Source: Anaerosomatales bacterium
GTDB lineage: Bacteria; Actinomycetota; Coriobacteriia; Anaerosomatales; Anaerosomataceae
DNA: 64,000 bases
Reading direction: 5' to 3'
Assembly: GCA_030019445.1 (NCBI GenBank)
Contig: JASEEU010000002.1
Span: 248,995-312,994, forward strand
Each line of letters starts with the position of its first letter. Within the stretch, counting starts at the first letter, position 1. Shown in pieces: positions 38,674 through 61,948 of the stretch. The notes under the pieces were generated by a model that had not been told where the DNA came from, made no database searches, and saw only the letters and a list, made by a program, of their open reading frames with translations. A program made the position numbers and the translations under genes.

Positions 38674-38722
38674 TGCTGTTGCTGCGCACTTCGAACCGTA
38701 CCGCACCACGGGAGGAGCCCTC

Positions 38723-39760
38723 ATGTCGCACGCGGAGCCCATCCGCCTGACACAGCTCTCCACCAAGTCCGGTTGAGCCGCCAAGTGGGGTCCGGGTGAC
38801 CTTGCCTCCGTGCTCGAGACGATGTCGCCGGGTGAGTCGGACGCGCTCATGGCGGGCTTCGAGACCGCTGATGACGCCGCCGTCTACCGCCTGGGCGATC
38901 GTGCCGTGCTGCTCACGGTCGACTTCTTCACCCCCATGGTGGACGACCCCTACGACTTCGGGCGCATCACCGCGGCCAACGCGCTCTCCGACATCTACGC
39001 GATGGGCGGCGTCCCGCTCGTCGCGATGAACCTGCTCGCGATGCCATGCAAGCTTCCGGCCGACGTGACCGCCGCCGTGCTGCGCGGTGGCGCGGACAAG
39101 GTCCGCGAGGCAGGCGCCGTGATCGTCGGCGGCCACACGATCGACGACGCCGAACCGAAGTACGGGCTGTCCGTCATGGGGACGTGCGACCCGGAGCGGG
39201 TGGTCCGCAACGTCGGCGCTCTCGCCGGCGACGTCCTCGTGCTCACCAAGCGCATCGGCGTCGGCATCCTCAACACCGCCCTCAAGCAAGGGCTCGAGTC
39301 CGAGAAGAGCCTGCATCGCGTGATCGAGAGCATGGCGCACCTGAACCGCGCTGCCGCCGAGGCGATGACCGAGGTCGGCGTGCACGCGGCGACCGACGTC
39401 ACCGGGTTCGGGCTCCTCGGCCACGTGCGTGAGATCGCGGTGGCCAGCGGCCTTTCCTGCGAGATCGACCTCACCAGCGTGCCGGTGTGGCCCGGTGCCC
39501 TCGACTACTCCCGCGATCGTGTCCGACCGGGTCGCACCGAGGACGTCATCGCCTTCCTCGACCCCTTCACCGACTGGGGGCCGGCCGACGCGGCGTGGCG
39601 GGGCGTGCTCGCCGACCCGCAGACGAGCGGCGGCCTCCTGATGGCCGTCGAGCCGCAGCGGCTCGATGACCTGCTCGGCGCCCTGGAACAGCGCGGCGAG
39701 GCCGCGAGCGTCGTCGGCCGGTTGGCCGAGGGCGAGCCCGGCGCGATGCGCGTGAGGTGA
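38723..39760 (+). CDS. selD: Selenide, water dikinase SelD, itself a selenoprotein (in-frame UGA)
   Basis: Makes selenophosphate, the selenium donor for Sec-tRNA. The gene starts at ATG 38723 behind GGAGGAG. Codon 18 (38774-38776) is TGA, read here as selenocysteine: QLSTKSG-U-AAKWGPGDL. This aligns with the catalytic Cys/Sec of SelD, which precedes the conserved Lys. The frame then stays open to 39760 (345 residues with Sec) and contains the AIRS-type ATP-binding motifs (ALSDIYAMGG, VTGFGLLGH, QTSGGLL). A stop-terminated gene call would wrongly begin at 38810 and lose the active site. Confidence 0.93.
38785..38805 (+). promoter_or_regulatory. Bacterial SECIS-like hairpin in selD
   Basis: GTGGGGTC (38785-38792) pairs with GACCTTGC (38798-38805) as an 8-bp stem with three G-U pairs. 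The CGGGT loop starts 17 nt after the UGA, within the range for bacterial SECIS elements bound by SelB. The stem and distance are read from sequence; binding is inferred. Confidence 0.65.
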
Positions 39761-39799
39761 CCGCACCGATCCGTCCCATCCGTGAAGGAAGGAGCGCAC

Positions 39800-40135
39800 A
39801 TGAAGGTCGTGTTCGTGAACTCGGACCGTATCGGCAAAGGTGGCGAGGAACTCGGCGCCAAGCTCATGGCGAGCTTCCTCTACTCGCTCGCACGCGCGGA
39901 GCTGCGGCCCGACGCCGTGCTCTTCATGAACGCGGGCGTCCGCCTGACGTGCGCGGGGTCGCCTGCCCTCGACGACATCGCCCTGCTCGCCGCCGACGGG
40001 GTGACGATCGCGTCCTGCGGCACCTGCCTCGATTACTACGGACTGACCGATGCGCTCGCGGTCGGAGCGGTCGGGAACATGAACGACACGGTGGCGACCT
40101 TCATGGCGGCCGACGACGTGGTGAGCATCGGCTGA
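39800..40135 (+). CDS. yedF: YedF-like selenium metabolism protein (DsrE domain only)
   Basis: A 111-residue protein of the DsrE/DsrF fold. It matches the C-terminal half of YedF, which is found in Sec-encoding bacteria and linked to selenium transfer. The conserved CGTCLDYYGL carries two cysteines, and MKVVFVNSDRIGKG and AVGNMNDTVATF are family-like. The N-terminal TusA half of full-length YedF is absent. ATG 39800 has AAGGAAGGAG upstream, and it is placed between selD and selA. Confidence 0.85.
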   Translation: MKVVFVNSDRIGKGGEELGAKLMASFLYSLARAELRPDAVLFMNAGVRLTCAGSPALDDIALLAADGVTIASCGTCLDYYGLTDALAVGAVGNMNDTVATFMAADDVVSIG

Positions 40136-40168
40136 CGAACCGCCGAGCTACGTGCCCACGCCATGGGC

Positions 40169-40174
40169 TAGAAT
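40169..40174 (+). promoter_or_regulatory. Possible leaderless promoter for selA
   Basis: TAGAAT ends 6 nt before the selA ATG, and no ribosome-binding site is visible. In actinobacteria this arrangement is typical of leaderless transcripts beginning at the A of the ATG. No -35 is evident. Confidence 0.45.
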
Positions 40175-40180
40175 AGCCGC

Positions 40181-41584
40181 ATGGACACGAACGCCCTGCT
40201 GCGGGCCCTGCCCAAAGTCGATCGTCTGCTGGAGCGCGAGGATGTCGCGGCGCTCGCGGCCGTTCATCCGCGCCCGCTCGTCGTCGAGGCTGTCCGCGAA
40301 GCCATCGATGCGACCCGCGCCGACGTGCTCGCGGGCCGGCTCACCACGGTGAGCGAGGACGATGTCGCCGCCCGGGCGGCCGTCGCCGTCGAGCGCTCCT
40401 CGCGGCGCTCGCTGCGCCGCGTCATCAACGCCAGCGGCATCGTGGTGCACACCAACCTCGGCCGCTCGCCCCTCGCGAGCAGCGCGATCGACGCGGTCGT
40501 CGATGTGGCCGCGGGCTATTCGACCCTCGAGTACGATGTCGAGAGCGGCGAGCGGGGTTCCCGGCACGTGCACGTGGAATCGCTGCTCACCCGGCTCACG
40601 GGCGCCGAGGCGGCGATGGCCGTCAACAACAACGCATCGGCGGTGCTCCTCGGCCTTGCCGGGCTCGCCCGCGGCAAGGAAGCCATCGTCTCCCGCGGAC
40701 AGCTCGTGGAGATCGGCGGCAGCTTCCGGATCCCGGACATCATGCGCGAGTCGGGCGCCACGATGGTGGAGGTCGGCACCACCAACAAGACGCACCTTCG
40801 GGACTACGAGGCCGCGCTGACGCCCCGGACCGGTCTGCTGCTCAAGGTCCATTCCTCGAATTTCCGAGTGGTAGGTTTCACCGAGGGGGTCTCGCTCGCC
40901 GAGCTCGTGGAGCTCGGCGCGCAGCACGGCGTGCCGGTCTTCGAGGACCAGGGCTCGGGCGTGCTCATCGACCTCGCGCGCTTCGGCATGCCGGGCGAGC
41001 CGACGATGGCGCAGGCGGTCGCCGCCGGCGCCGACCTTGTGAGCGCATCGGGCGACAAGCTGCTCGGCGGCCCGCAGGCGGGCATCCTCGTGGGCAAGTG
41101 GCACGTCATCGAGAAGCTCAAGAAGCACCCCCTCGCCCGCGCCGTGCGCCTCGACAAGATGACCCTCGCCGCGCTCGAGATGACGCTCAGGCTCTACCTC
41201 GACGAGGAGCGCCTGTTCGCCGAGGTCCCCACGCTGCGCATGCTCACGATGTCCGCCGAGGAGTCCGCGGCGCGGGCCGAGAAGCTCGCGGCGGCGCTGC
41301 GCGACGCGTGCGGCGACGCGTGTGACGTGCGGACGTCGCCCGACGTCTCGCGCGCCGGCGGCGGTGCGCTGCCGATGGCCGACATTCCGACCACCGTCGT
41401 CTCGGTCGCCCCGCGGACGGTTGCGGTCAACGAGCTCGAGCGGCGCCTGCGTCTCGGCACGCCGACCATCGTCGCCCGCATCAGAGACGACCGCCTGCAG
41501 CTCGACCCCCGGACGCTCGCTCCGGGTGACGAGCCCGCCATCGTCGCCGCGATCGCGCGCGCGCTCGGAGAGGCGTCGGCGTGA
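40181..41584 (+). CDS. selA: L-seryl-tRNA(Sec) selenium transferase SelA
   Basis: PLP enzyme that converts Ser-tRNA(Sec) to Sec-tRNA(Sec) with selenophosphate. The 467-residue protein has NASGIVVHTNLGRSPL, VNNNASAVLLGLAGLA, the PLP lysine at about K293 in ASGDKLLGGPQAG, and the SelA-specific N-terminal region. It lies between yedF and selB; its last codons overlap the selB GTG by 4 nt. Lack of a ribosome site and a TAGAAT hexamer just upstream suggest leaderless initiation as well as read-through from selD. Confidence 0.97.
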   Translation: MDTNALLRALPKVDRLLEREDVAALAAVHPRPLVVEAVREAIDATRADVLAGRLTTVSEDDVAARAAVAVERSSRRSLRRVINASGIVVHTNLGRSPLASSAIDAVVDVAAGYSTLEYDVESGERGSRHVHVESLLTRLTGAEAAMAVNNNASAVLLGLAGLARGKEAIVSRGQLVEIGGSFRIPDIMRESGATMVEVGTTNKTHLRDYEAALTPRTGLLLKVHSSNFRVVGFTEGVSLAELVELGAQHGVPVFEDQGSGVLIDLARFGMPGEPTMAQAVAAGADLVSASGDKLLGGPQAGILVGKWHVIEKLKKHPLARAVRLDKMTLAALEMTLRLYLDEERLFAEVPTLRMLTMSAEESAARAEKLAAALRDACGDACDVRTSPDVSRAGGGALPMADIPTTVVSVAPRTVAVNELERRLRLGTPTIVARIRDDRLQLDPRTLAPGDEPAIVAAIARALGEASA

Positions 41585-43485
41585 GCTCCTCGCTCGTGCT
41601 CGGGACCGCCGGTCATATCGACCACGGCAAGTCGTCGCTTATCAAAGCGCTCACCGGCACCGATCCCGACCGGCTGCCGGAGGAGAAGTCGCGCGGCGTG
41701 ACCATCGAGCTCGGCTTCGCGCAGCTCGAGCTGCCGAGCGGCCGGACGATGGGCGTGGTGGACGTGCCCGGCCACGAGCGGTTCGTCCGGCAGATGGTGG
41801 CCGGCGCCACCGGCATCGACGTCGTGCTCCTCGTCGTGGCCGCCGACGACGGCATCATGCCCCAGACGCGCGAGCACCTCGCGATCATCGACCTTCTCGG
41901 CATCCCTAAAGGCGTCGTCGCGATCACCAAGTCCGACCTCGTCGATGACGAGTGGATCGAGCTCGTGCGCGATGAAGTGACGGCGCTCACCCGGGGGACG
42001 TCGATCGAGGGCGCGCCCGTCGTGCCCGTATCGGCACGCACCGGAGCGGGTCTGGACGACCTGCTCACCGCACTCGACGAGATGGCGACCGAGGCGGTCT
42101 CGCGGCAGGCGACGTTGCCGATGCGCCTCCCGGTGGACCGCGTCTTCACCATCGCGGGCGCGGGCACGGTGGTGACCGGCACGCTCTGGTCCGGGACGGT
42201 GAAGCGTGACGATGCCGTCGAGCTCTACCCCAGTGGCCGAGAAGGACGCGTCCGCTCCGTGCAGGTGCACTCGCGTCCGGTCGACAAGGCGGTCGCCGGC
42301 AGCCGCGTGGCGCTCAACCTCGCCGGGCTGGAGACGCAGGAGATCGCGCGCGGCGATATCGTCGCCGCGCCGGGGACGCTCTCGGTGACCGACCGCTTCG
42401 ACGCGCGCTTCACCTACCTGCCGGGCAACGAGGAGCCCTTCGCGACCGGCACGCGCGTGCACATCCACCACGGGACGCGCGAGGTGCTCGGTCGTGTGCT
42501 GCTGATGGGCGCCGAGGAGCTCGCGCCGGGCGAGAGCGCGCTCGCGCAGGTGCGACTGGAGGAGCCGCTGGCGCCGCGGTACGAGGACCGCTTCATCGCA
42601 CGCTCGTACTCCCCGATGTTCACCATCGGCGGCGGGACCGTGCTCGACGTGCTGCCGCCCCGGCGCACCACGCTCAAGCCTCACGAGCGGTCGCTGCTGG
42701 AGGCGCTCGTGGCGCACGACCTCTCGGCCGCCTCGACCGGTCTGCTCGCCGCGCGTGCCGTGCCGATGACGTCTGCCGAGGTTGCGGCCGCCATCGGGGT
42801 GCCGCGCGCGCAGGTGGCCGATGAGCTCAACCGGGCATCGCTCGAGCGCCTGAAGGTCGGCCCGGACACATGCTTCGTCACCCCGGAGGCGCAGGCCGGC
42901 CTGCTCGCAACCATCGAACGGGAGCTGCGCGCGTACCATGACACGAATCCGACGGCCACGGGGATCGCGGCGCTCGCGCTGCGCGACCGCGTCGACCGCC
43001 GCCTCGGGCCCAAGGTCTTCGACGCGCTGCTGGCGCTATCCGCCGAGCGCGGCGACATCGTCCTCGCCGGGGGTGAGGTGCGGCACCCACAGGCAGCCTC
43101 CACGGCGCTTGCCGCGGAGGAGCAGGCGGTCGCGGCGCTCGGCCCGCTCCTGGAGCGCCAGGGGCTCGCTCCGTCGTCGCTCGCTGAGCTTGCGGCCGAG
43201 GTCGGCGTCGAGGTGGGCGTGGCGCGCAAGGCGCTCAACCGGCTCGTGTCGGAGGGCGCCGTGGTGCGCATCGCGGGTGACCTGCACTTCTCGGCGGGCG
43301 CGCTCGACGCCGCCCGCGAGACGATCGTCGGCTACCTGCGCGAGCACGGGGAGATGCTCGCCAAGGACGCCCGAGACCTTCTCGGCAGTTCGCGCAAGTA
43401 CGTCGTCCCGATCCTCGAGCACTTCGACGCGCAGGGCATCACCCGGCGCGACGGCGACGTCCGCACGCTCGGCAAGCGGGCCTGA
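41581..43485 (+). CDS. selB: Selenocysteine-specific elongation factor SelB
   Basis: EF-Tu-like GTPase that carries Sec-tRNA to UGA codons marked by SECIS hairpins. The 634-residue protein has G1 TAGHIDHGKSSL, the switch RGVTIELGFAQL, G3 DVPGHERFVR and G4 TKSD, followed by EF-Tu domains II and III. Four C-terminal winged-helix domains (about 380-634), which bind SECIS RNA, complete it. It is coupled to selA by the GTGA overlap. With tRNA-Sec at 44927 the Sec-incorporation set is complete. Confidence 0.97.
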   Translation: MSSSLVLGTAGHIDHGKSSLIKALTGTDPDRLPEEKSRGVTIELGFAQLELPSGRTMGVVDVPGHERFVRQMVAGATGIDVVLLVVAADDGIMPQTREHLAIIDLLGIPKGVVAITKSDLVDDEWIELVRDEVTALTRGTSIEGAPVVPVSARTGAGLDDLLTALDEMATEAVSRQATLPMRLPVDRVFTIAGAGTVVTGTLWSGTVKRDDAVELYPSGREGRVRSVQVHSRPVDKAVAGSRVALNLAGLETQEIARGDIVAAPGTLSVTDRFDARFTYLPGNEEPFATGTRVHIHHGTREVLGRVLLMGAEELAPGESALAQVRLEEPLAPRYEDRFIARSYSPMFTIGGGTVLDVLPPRRTTLKPHERSLLEALVAHDLSAASTGLLAARAVPMTSAEVAAAIGVPRAQVADELNRASLERLKVGPDTCFVTPEAQAGLLATIERELRAYHDTNPTATGIAALALRDRVDRRLGPKVFDALLALSAERGDIVLAGGEVRHPQAASTALAAEEQAVAALGPLLERQGLAPSSLAELAAEVGVEVGVARKALNRLVSEGAVVRIAGDLHFSAGALDAARETIVGYLREHGEMLAKDARDLLGSSRKYVVPILEHFDAQGITRRDGDVRTLGKRA

Positions 43486-43517
43486 GCCACTCGAGGCGAA
43501 GGGCCGCACCCGGGGAC

Positions 43518-44786
43518 TCAGTCGTCGTCATCATCGTCCGGGTCGTTGGAGGAGTGGCATTCCAGGCACGAGTAGGTCGAGTAGCCGCGAGGATGGCACG
43601 TCGCACACGAGAAGCTGCGGTACGTGTGCTCACCGCCCGGCACGCGCGGGTGCGAGAACGTCGCGCTGCTCCATGCCCGGCTCGGCGAGTGGCAGCTCGC
43701 GCACGAGCTCCCGTAGTGGTTCGCGGGGGGCCGGTGGCAGCTCGCGCATGCCGTAGATGTGGGGTGCGTGAACGCCCAGCTGACGCCGGTCTTGTGGCAG
43801 CTCGCACAGCTCGTGGAGTAGTGTCCGGCCGGCTTCGTGTGGCACTCGAGACATGCCGACGCGCTGCCGGGGTGCGTGAACACGGCGTCGCTCCACGCCT
43901 CGTCCGGTGAATGGCAGCTCGCGCACGAGCTTCCGTAGTGGTCGGCGGGGGGCGCGTGGCAGCTCGCGCAATCGGCAGACGTGGGGTGTGTGAACGCCCA
44001 GCTGACACCCGTCTCATGACAGGTCGTGCACGGCTGCGGATAGTGGTCGTCGGGCGGCTCGTGGCACGCGGCGCACGCTGCGGATGCCGGCGGGTGCTCG
44101 AATCTCCAATCCGCGGCGGCGTGGCACGTCAGGCACGTCGCGGTGGTCTCCGGGTGCTCTTCAGGCCGGGGATGGCAGGCCGCACACCCGGTCGCGGCGA
44201 GGTCGTGGCAGTCGGAGCACACCACCTCCACATGGCCCTCGATGTTCGCCGCCCCGGCTCCGAGCACGGCAGTCCTGGAGGACTCGTAGGCCGCGAACGC
44301 CTCGGGGTCGAGCACGCCGGCAGCGTCGAGCGCCTCGGCCGTGACCGTGTGGCCGATGCCGGAATGGCACGATACGCACTGTCTCCCGGCGCGGTGAGCC
44401 TCGTGGTCGAAACCGGGGATACGGGGATCCACCTCGTCATCGTGACAGGCGACGCACCGCCGGTCCGGCACCTCCGCACCCACCGGGAAGCGCGGATCGG
44501 TCGTGAGGTGCAGGTACACTTCTTTCAGGGCGACGAACTTGTGCGACACCTGGGCGACCACGCCCGGATCGACGTGGCAGTCCACGCAGTCGACCGTCGC
44601 GTGCGCACCCGCCGTCCACGCCTCGTAGTAGGGGGTCATCTCGTGGCAGGTGTTGCAGAAGGCCGGTCGGCTCGTCAGCTCTACGGCGACCGCGCTGCCC
44701 GTGACGAGGAGGACGACGCCCACCGCCAGCAGCAGCCGGGTCTGCGGCTTCATGTCACGCAACCAGGCGATCGGGTGACGCATCAT
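43518..44786 (-). CDS. 17-heme membrane-anchored c-type cytochrome (NapC/NrfH-type N-terminus)
   Basis: Quinol-linked electron carrier likely anchored in the membrane. The 422-residue product has one N-terminal helix (about 12-36, TRLLLAVGVVLLVTGSAVAV) and a first heme motif FCNTCHEM as in NapC/NrfH. I count 17 CxxCH motifs. The C-terminal half contains two near-identical blocks, each with the order WAFTHP, CASCH, PPxxHYGSS and CASCHSP. The protein ends in a run of Asp (DPDDDDDD). ATG 44786 is preferred to a start 63 nt upstream. No nitrite reductase or other terminal enzyme is adjacent. Confidence 0.9.
   Translation of the reverse strand: MMRHPIAWLRDMKPQTRLLLAVGVVLLVTGSAVAVELTSRPAFCNTCHEMTPYYEAWTAGAHATVDCVDCHVDPGVVAQVSHKFVALKEVYLHLTTDPRFPVGAEVPDRRCVACHDDEVDPRIPGFDHEAHRAGRQCVSCHSGIGHTVTAEALDAAGVLDPEAFAAYESSRTAVLGAGAANIEGHVEVVCSDCHDLAATGCAACHPRPEEHPETTATCLTCHAAADWRFEHPPASAACAACHEPPDDHYPQPCTTCHETGVSWAFTHPTSADCASCHAPPADHYGSSCASCHSPDEAWSDAVFTHPGSASACLECHTKPAGHYSTSCASCHKTGVSWAFTHPTSTACASCHRPPANHYGSSCASCHSPSRAWSSATFSHPRVPGGEHTYRSFSCATCHPRGYSTYSCLECHSSNDPDDDDDD
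43650..43790 (-). repeat. Tandem heme-module repeat, copy 2
   Basis: Encodes TGVSWAFTHPTSTACASCH and the following RPPANHYGSSCASCHSP segment of the 17-heme cytochrome. It is nearly the same as copy 1, 222 nt away, at protein and DNA level. Confidence 0.8.
43872..44012 (-). repeat. Tandem heme-module repeat, copy 1
   Basis: Encodes TGVSWAFTHPTSADCASCH and the APPADHYGSSCASCHSP segment. High identity with copy 2 indicates recent internal duplication of a two-heme module. Confidence 0.8.
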
Positions 44787-44926
44787 CTCTATCCGTTCTG
44801 GACGGCAACGGGTGCCGGTGGGGCGACGGGTGCAGGTGAGGCGGGGCAAGCAAATCGAGTACCAGGCGGGCGTCGTCAGCGACGCCCGTTTGACACCCGC
44901 TCGGTCGCTCCGGACAATACCCCCTT

Positions 44927-45023
44927 GGAGGCGGATGGGGCCTGGTGGCTCCCGCGGTCTTCAAAACCGTAGTGGGGCGTGAAGAGCGTCCCGGGTGTGT
45001 TCGATTCGCACGCGCCTCCGCCA
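44927..45023 (+). tRNA. selC: tRNA-Sec (anticodon TCA)
   Basis: 97-nt selenocysteine tRNA with encoded CCA. The acceptor GGAGGCG pairs with CGCCTCC; the eighth pair typical of bacterial tRNA-Sec would be G-G. The extended 6-bp D stem GGGGCC/GGCTCC closes a 4-nt TGGT loop, the anticodon loop is CTTCAAA, there is a long variable arm, and the T arm is GTGTG TTCGATT CGCAC. These features distinguish tRNA-Sec from tRNA-Ser. Confidence 0.95.
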
Positions 45024-60951: not shown

Positions 60952-61053
60952 ACGCGGGCCATAACCTCCGAAGTCTCGCGGACCTACAGCGCTTCGACAC
61001 GCCATGGACGCGAGACCGACAGGGTGAGACCGGGAAACCGCCTCATCTCCCGT
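60952..61053 (+). ncRNA. Moco/Tuco RNA-like riboswitch in the tupA leader
   Basis: Structured 5' leader. The visible helices are: P1, GCGGG (60954-60958) with CCCGT (61049-61053); a perfect 8-bp helix GTCTCGCG (60973-60980) with CGCGAGAC (61009-61016); and a GNRA hairpin CGG-GAAA-CCG (61031-61040). The conserved-looking ACCTCCGAAG and CGACAGGGTGAGAC flank them. The layout recalls the molybdenum/tungsten cofactor motif as I remember it. P1 closes a few bases before AAAGGAG, so it could hide or release the ribosome site. The tungstate gene downstream fits a tungsten-cofactor sensor. The family assignment needs a covariance-model search. Confidence 0.6.
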
Positions 61054-61072
61054 ACTTGGAAAGGAGCGTTCT

Positions 61073-61948
61073 ATGTCGAACCGTAAGAGGAGGTCCGCCT
61101 TGTGGCGGATCCTCGCCGTAGCCCTCTCGATGTCGCTGGTGTTCTCGCTGGCGGCGTGCACGTCCGAGGATACGGCGGAGGAACCCGGGGGTCAGGCACA
61201 AGAGCCTGTCGAGCCGACACGGCTCGTCCTCGCGTCGACCACGTCCACACAAGACTCAGGGTTGTTCGACGTGCTGATCCCCGCCTTCGAAGAGGCCTAC
61301 CCGGAGTACTCGGTCGAGGTCGTGGCCGTCGGCACCGGTGAGGCTCTCGAGCTCGGCCGCAACAAGGACGCCGACGTCCTGCTCGTCCACGCCAAGGCAT
61401 CCGAGGAGGAGATGGTCGCCGAGGGGTACGCGACGGAGCGTCGTGACGTGATGTACAACGACTTCATCATCGTCGGGCCTGCCGCGGACCCCGCGGGTGT
61501 CGGCGGCACCTCCGATGCGGCTGCTGCGCTGACCGCGATCTCCGGGTCGGGCGCCGAGTTCGCATCGCGCGGTGATGACTCGGGCACCCACAAGAAGGAG
61601 CTCCAGCTCTGGGAGGCGGCCGGCATCGAGCCGTCCGGCGACTGGTACCTCTCGGTCGGCCAGGGCATGGGCGACACGCTCAAGCTCGCCTCCGAGAAGG
61701 GCGCCTACACGCTCACGGACCGCGCGACCTATCTCAACCTGCGTGACACGCTGCAGCTGGAGATCCTGGTGGAGGGCGATAGCGCGCTGTTCAACCAGTA
61801 CGGCGTCCTGCCCGTCACCGATGCCACCAACAGTGACGGCGCCGAGGCGTTCACCGACTGGGTCACCAGCGCGGACGCGCAGGCGATCATCGAGGAGTAC
61901 GGGATCGACACGTTCGGCCAGCCGCTGTTCGTGCCGAACGCACAGTAG
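61073..61948 (+). CDS. tupA: Tungstate-binding lipoprotein TupA
   Basis: Extracytoplasmic binding protein of the tungstate ABC transporter. The 291-residue lipoprotein has a lipobox (SLAAC, Cys about 29), an acidic linker, and a type II periplasmic-binding fold. TupA hallmarks are TTSTQDSG near residue 57, NKDADVLLVHAKASEE, MYNDFIIVGP and the oxyanion loop ASRGDDSGTHKKE. GGAAAGGAG precedes ATG 61073. tupB and tupC follow on the same strand. Confidence 0.95.
   Translation: MSNRKRRSALWRILAVALSMSLVFSLAACTSEDTAEEPGGQAQEPVEPTRLVLASTTSTQDSGLFDVLIPAFEEAYPEYSVEVVAVGTGEALELGRNKDADVLLVHAKASEEEMVAEGYATERRDVMYNDFIIVGPAADPAGVGGTSDAAAALTAISGSGAEFASRGDDSGTHKKELQLWEAAGIEPSGDWYLSVGQGMGDTLKLASEKGAYTLTDRATYLNLRDTLQLEILVEGDSALFNQYGVLPVTDATNSDGAEAFTDWVTSADAQAIIEEYGIDTFGQPLFVPNAQ

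Follow-up and report, generated by a model that had tools for sequence, protein, structure and literature searches.

The window, the whole 64,000-nucleotide stretch of DNA that was analysed, carries a gene for selenide water dikinase (selD), followed by genes for the synthesis and decoding of selenocysteine (Sec) (Table 1). The selD frame running from the ATG at 38723 to the TGA ending at 39760 is interrupted only once, by a TGA at 38774-38776 that forms codon 18; the terminal stop is likewise TGA (39758-39760). When this codon is read through, the product scores 372.1 bits against TIGR00476, with a curated cut-off of 125, and covers model positions 1-309 of 311, essentially the full model, with Cys/Sec at the catalytic position, which places it within the SelD family. 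Comparison with chains of known structure found homology to 3u0o, which we take to be SelD of E. coli, over residues 6-341 (E 1.3e-70). Residue 18 was aligned with Cys17 of this chain and with the Cys of the SGCAAKVGPGD motif in 2yye, in agreement with the earlier note, which had put the TGA at codon 18 and at the catalytic Cys/Sec position. The same note had expected ordinary gene calling to start at 38810 and to lose the active site; indeed, without recoding the longest open reading frame with an ATG, GTG or TTG start begins at GTG 38810 and does not include the active site, so that the Sec reading would put right a truncated gene model from routine calling. Inspection of the sequence upstream of GTG 38810 disclosed no ribosome-binding-like stretch.

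Table 1 Position of selD, its recoding signals and the neighbouring Sec genes in the window.
Feature	Position	Strand	Basis
Ribosome-binding-like sequence GGGAGGAG	38710..38717	+	read in the sequence; 5 nt upstream of ATG 38723
selD, selenide water dikinase, 345 residues with predicted Sec18	38723..39760	+	TIGR00476, 372 bits vs cut-off 125; solved SelD structures 3u0o, 2yye
In-frame UGA, codon 18, predicted to be read as selenocysteine	38774..38776	+	aligned with Cys17 in chain 3u0o (SelD of E. coli)
Predicted bacterial SECIS hairpin, 8-bp stem, loop CGGGU (38793-38797)	38785..38805	+	fold; stem of at least 7 in 47/51 close Sec relatives vs 3.2 expected
yedF, selenium metabolism protein, DsrE-like half only	39800..40135	+	TIGR03527, 133.9 bits vs 110, profile positions 86-194 of 194
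selA, L-seryl-tRNA(Sec) selenium transferase	40181..41584	+	TIGR00474, 608.6 bits vs 267.9
selB, selenocysteine-specific elongation factor	41581..43485	+	TIGR00475, 388.5 bits vs 242.25; winged-helix domains PF09106, PF09107
selC, tRNA-Sec, anticodon UCA	44927..45019	+	ARAGORN (44927-45023); Rfam RF01852, 73.9 bits vs 47

The genes from selD to that of tRNA-Sec (38723-45019) occupy 6.3 kb on one strand, and the start of selB overlaps the stop of selA by 4 nt. As selA, selB, selC and selD all score above their curated thresholds, the Sec-decoding trait is present in full within these 6.3 kb, and the claim of a complete Sec machinery within 7 kb holds for selA, selB and tRNA-Sec alike. The order selD-yedF-selA-selB at short distances was found in 14 of the 25 close Sec loci for which 4500 nt or more of downstream sequence is available, while in the other 11 the genes are farther away, missing from the stretch or interrupted. 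Little open frame is present upstream of YedF in most close relatives as well, and the TusA-like half of this protein seems to be missing in the lineage. A gene for a multihaem cytochrome c with a NapC/NirT-like N-terminal part lies on the minus strand (43518-44849) between selB and the tRNA-Sec gene, and a molybdenum/tungsten cofactor riboswitch was detected farther along the window (60954-61084; RF01055, 55.8 bits vs 36).

Downstream of codon 18 the sequence folds into a hairpin whose 5' arm (38785-38792) and 3' arm (38798-38805) form eight pairs, three of them G-U, with 16 nt between the UGA and the loop, which begins at the 17th nucleotide after the UGA. This is the 8-bp SECIS-like hairpin described in the earlier note. 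According to the legend to Fig. 2 of PMC13188914, the bacterial SECIS model has an apical loop of 3-9 nt, an upper stem of 4-16 bp, a G in the first two loop positions and a distance of 16-37 nt from the UGA, and the model given in this source has a minimum free energy at or below -7.5 kcal/mol. The selD hairpin agrees with this model, having a loop of 5 nt and a stem of 8 bp, the loop sequence CGGGU and a distance of 16 nt, equal to the lower limit; in energy it agrees narrowly, with -7.8 kcal/mol for the hairpin alone and -8.8 and -9.3 kcal/mol with flanks. The hairpin of this one gene is thermodynamically unexceptional, its energy not being beyond chance: the segment 38774-38812 gave z +1.06, with 176 of 200 shuffles equal or better, and 38777-38811 gave z +1.21; the 21-nt hairpin alone gave z -1.53 (18 of 200 shuffles equal or better), and among synonymous recodings of this selD its energy rank was 0.505 and its stem-length p value 0.06. 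Minimum free energy, weak as SECIS evidence in general and providing none for this gene, was set aside, and tests of synonymous sites and stem length were used instead.

The synonymous-site set comprised 113 loci, 109 covering codon 18 and 93 non-identical; the close Sec set consisted of 52 Sec sequences at least 55% identical, one locus (L050) was left out of the folding-energy and stem-length tests, and expected codon counts were derived from the codon usage of each gene. Related sequences are not independent and kinship was not corrected for, so that the following counts overstate the evidence: codon 23 is GGT in all 51 Gly-bearing close Sec relatives (7.4 expected), codon 24 is CCG in 51 of 52 close Sec sequences (28.5 expected), codon 26 is GAC in 50 of 52 (39.6 expected) and codon 27 is CTC or CTT in 48 of 52 (about 31 expected). 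In an alignment of 50 sequences with 121 conserved degenerate columns, codon entropy is zero at codon 23, compared with 1.04 bits for the next best of 23 conserved Gly columns; of the 10 Pro columns, codon 24 varies least. Correctly spaced stems of at least 7 were present in 47 of the 51 close Sec sequences, against 3.2 expected, in 14 of the 30 more distant ones (1.5) and in none of the 11 Cys sequences (0.0); for a stem of at least 5 the values are 51 of 51 (7.2), 21 of 30 (6.1) and 1 of 11 (0.4), respectively. Folding energy compared with synonymous recoding gave a median z of -1.46 in the close Sec set, with 20 of 51 sequences at p 0.05, and of -0.17 in the Cys set, with 3 of 11. Across the relatives, the hairpin is clearly under strong synonymous constraint, beyond chance. 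This supports its reading as a SECIS element, and selD of this little-studied actinobacterial lineage would clearly illustrate SECIS constraint at the level of codons.

Related selD loci were collected by a scan of genome_contigs, and the best 80 of the 254 confirmed loci were compared at codon 18. The codon is readable in 78 of them, two loci (L037 and L077) not covering the position and the copy of the window itself (L001) forming a 79th row, and it is TGA in 67, TGC in eight and TGT in three. The 11 Cys-type loci among these best 80 come from records labelled Acidimicrobiia, Actinomycetes, Actinomycetota or actinobacterium and have the motif GCACKLSP, as against GUAAKWGP in the Sec type; relatives' records are labelled Coriobacteriia or Anaerosomatales. 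The possibility that the active-site Cys of homologues falls elsewhere was checked in the same alignment, in which the active-site Cys/Sec column coincides with the TGA in all 78 readable loci. A separate search of 61 genomes (this one and 60 relatives) found SelD above the family cut-off in 53; the match reaches back to the model start and includes a TGA in 51 of these 53, and in the other two (G006 and G043) the match lacks the model start. SelD above cut-off is absent from eight of the 61 genomes, two of which (G040 and G045) are nearly complete. Two distinct Sec-type selD copies occur in two contigs of the record Zod_maxbin.0135_3 (L010 and L018), and likewise in genome G024 (C84 and C32); these pairs could reflect either a mixed bin or a true duplication.

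A reading of UGA 18 as an ordinary stop would leave either a shortened SelD starting at GTG 38810 or a decaying gene copy. The frame from GTG 38810 is open and still scores 344 bits against the SelD model, but the residues ahead of 38810 are conserved in the readable relatives (among the best 80 of 254 loci), synonymous sites from the UGA to 38810 rank with the most constrained in the gene, a good ribosome-binding stretch is present ahead of 38723 but not ahead of 38810, and no second SelD in the genome exceeds the cut-off. Taken together, these data make an ordinary stop at codon 18 highly improbable. A sequencing or assembly error that turned a TGC or TGT into TGA is conceivable in a draft assembly of 23 contigs. 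Nevertheless, the codon is TGA in 67 of the 78 readable related loci from other records (best 80 of 254), and the SECIS-type codons GGT and CCG are present in this gene also. A read error at 38774-38776, the objection raised in the earlier note, was excluded because the Cys/Sec column falls on the TGA in all 78 readable loci, being Cys in the remaining 11; given the homologues, an error appears very unlikely. Even less credible is a general reassignment of TGA to a sense codon such as Trp, which has nothing in its favour except the open frame: TGA terminates both selD (39758) and selA (41582-41584), tRNA-Sec, SelA and SelB are present, and the column holds Sec or Cys and never Trp in the 78 readable loci (best 80 of 254).

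The source genome (2.09 Mb in 23 draft contigs, 97.6% complete) contains one SelD above the family cut-off. Its single formate-dehydrogenase-like protein, a catalytic subunit encoded on the minus strand at about G000:C17:134996-137992 (within L138), reads EHQARICHSATV, with Cys (codon TGC) at the site where relatives have EHQARI-UGA-HSATV; at least one formate-dehydrogenase-like match with a TGA was found in each of 25 relatives, and a change from Sec to Cys or a replacement is probable for this genome. The Cys form prompted the hypothesis that SelD is the sole selenoprotein, which was rejected because, among the AhpC-TSA proteins searched for in this genome and the 25 relatives, one match in the genome itself carries an in-frame TGA. 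The match, to a lipoprotein-like peroxiredoxin (G000:C17:132463-132837), has the TGA within AFTPVU, which we take to be the peroxidatic site. The peroxiredoxin gene (L138 2323-2916; G000:C17:132322-132915) lies near that of the formate dehydrogenase on the opposite strand, and many relatives also have peroxiredoxin matches with one TGA. On these data, the genome is predicted to encode at least two selenoproteins, SelD and the lipoprotein peroxiredoxin. Searches of the same 26 genomes gave no match for FlpD, GRDB or HesB-like proteins in this genome, none for YbbB (selenouridine) in this genome and none above cut-off in any, and none for YqeB (Se-cofactor) in all 26; a HesB-like protein with an in-frame TGA was seen in one relative only (G004:C55:3492-3746; 1 of 26 genomes).

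An octamer, GTCCGGGT, is common to selD and the peroxiredoxin gene, 11 and 13 nt after the UGA, respectively. It was noticed post hoc, and with a gap of 8-18 nt from a TGA it occurs at 26 sites in the genome, both genes included, compared with seven for the control; none of the other 24 sites showed a convincing reading frame across the TGA when judged by eye, and the sharing of the octamer is suggestive only. When the window was scanned for further coding frames interrupted by TGA, seven places came up, none of them convincing by eye; the procedure is not sensitive close to gene starts and did not pick up even codon 18 of selD.

The uninterrupted remainder of the frame, the homology, the Sec/Cys column, the conserved hairpin, the neighbouring Sec machinery and the single SelD of the genome together indicate that selD is almost certainly a genuine selenoprotein gene, with Sec at UGA 18 inserted by means of the hairpin at 38785-38805. 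Translation would start at ATG 38723, and SelB, as expected from established knowledge, would bind the hairpin and deliver Sec-tRNA-Sec at codon 18, after which translation would continue to the TGA at 39758. By the same reasoning, Sec18 would lie in a mobile N-terminal loop and act as the catalytic nucleophile handling selenide, and the selenophosphate made by SelD would be used by SelA for Sec-tRNA-Sec, so that SelD would contribute to making its own active site. Such an autocatalytic loop, in which SelD needs its own product, is a fair inference because the genome has one SelD above the family cut-off, and organisms with Sec-SelD are known to have this property. The chance is slim that the Sec system is kept here chiefly by SelD itself, in a nearly self-serving loop, a reading based on the Cys formate dehydrogenase, the lack of YbbB and YqeB matches and the peroxiredoxin as the sole other selenoprotein found. 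Should the organism truly depend on a single Sec-containing SelD, its selenium use could be switch-like, all or none, with a slow return once Sec-SelD has been diluted out.

Among the SelD chains of known structure, 2yye is presumably an Aquifex protein with Sec in its natural form; its motif SGCAAKVGPGD matches SGUAAKWGPGD of the window, with Cys at the site in the crystallised chain and Sec predicted here. E. coli SelD (3u0o) is homologous but has Cys in place of the Sec, and a second Cys two residues on, which the motif of this lineage, GUAAKWGPGDL, lacks. SelD is described in PMC4561486 as 'often a selenoprotein itself', and in a 2016 survey it ranks second to formate dehydrogenase among bacterial selenoproteins, with 383 organisms (PMC5029168). 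A 2006 survey had already observed that organisms which decode Sec but lack FdhA possess Sec-SelD, and that this protein may keep the trait in place (PMC1794560); the combination of a Cys formate dehydrogenase with a predicted Sec SelD and Sec peroxiredoxin bears mildly on this idea of maintenance by FdhA or SelD. The protein resembles Sec-SelD of the SPS2 type, known from many bacteria and as SEPHS2 from eukaryotes, in its predicted catalytic Sec close to the N-terminus, a bSECIS directly downstream and the Sec machinery in the genome, as outlined in PMC4561486 and PMC13188914, and differs from it in no respect of kind. The assignment of a Sec-SelD is thus correct, well supported and ordinary, leaving the knowledge of SelD unchanged: the arrangement has long been known, and nearly all close relatives share the Sec form.
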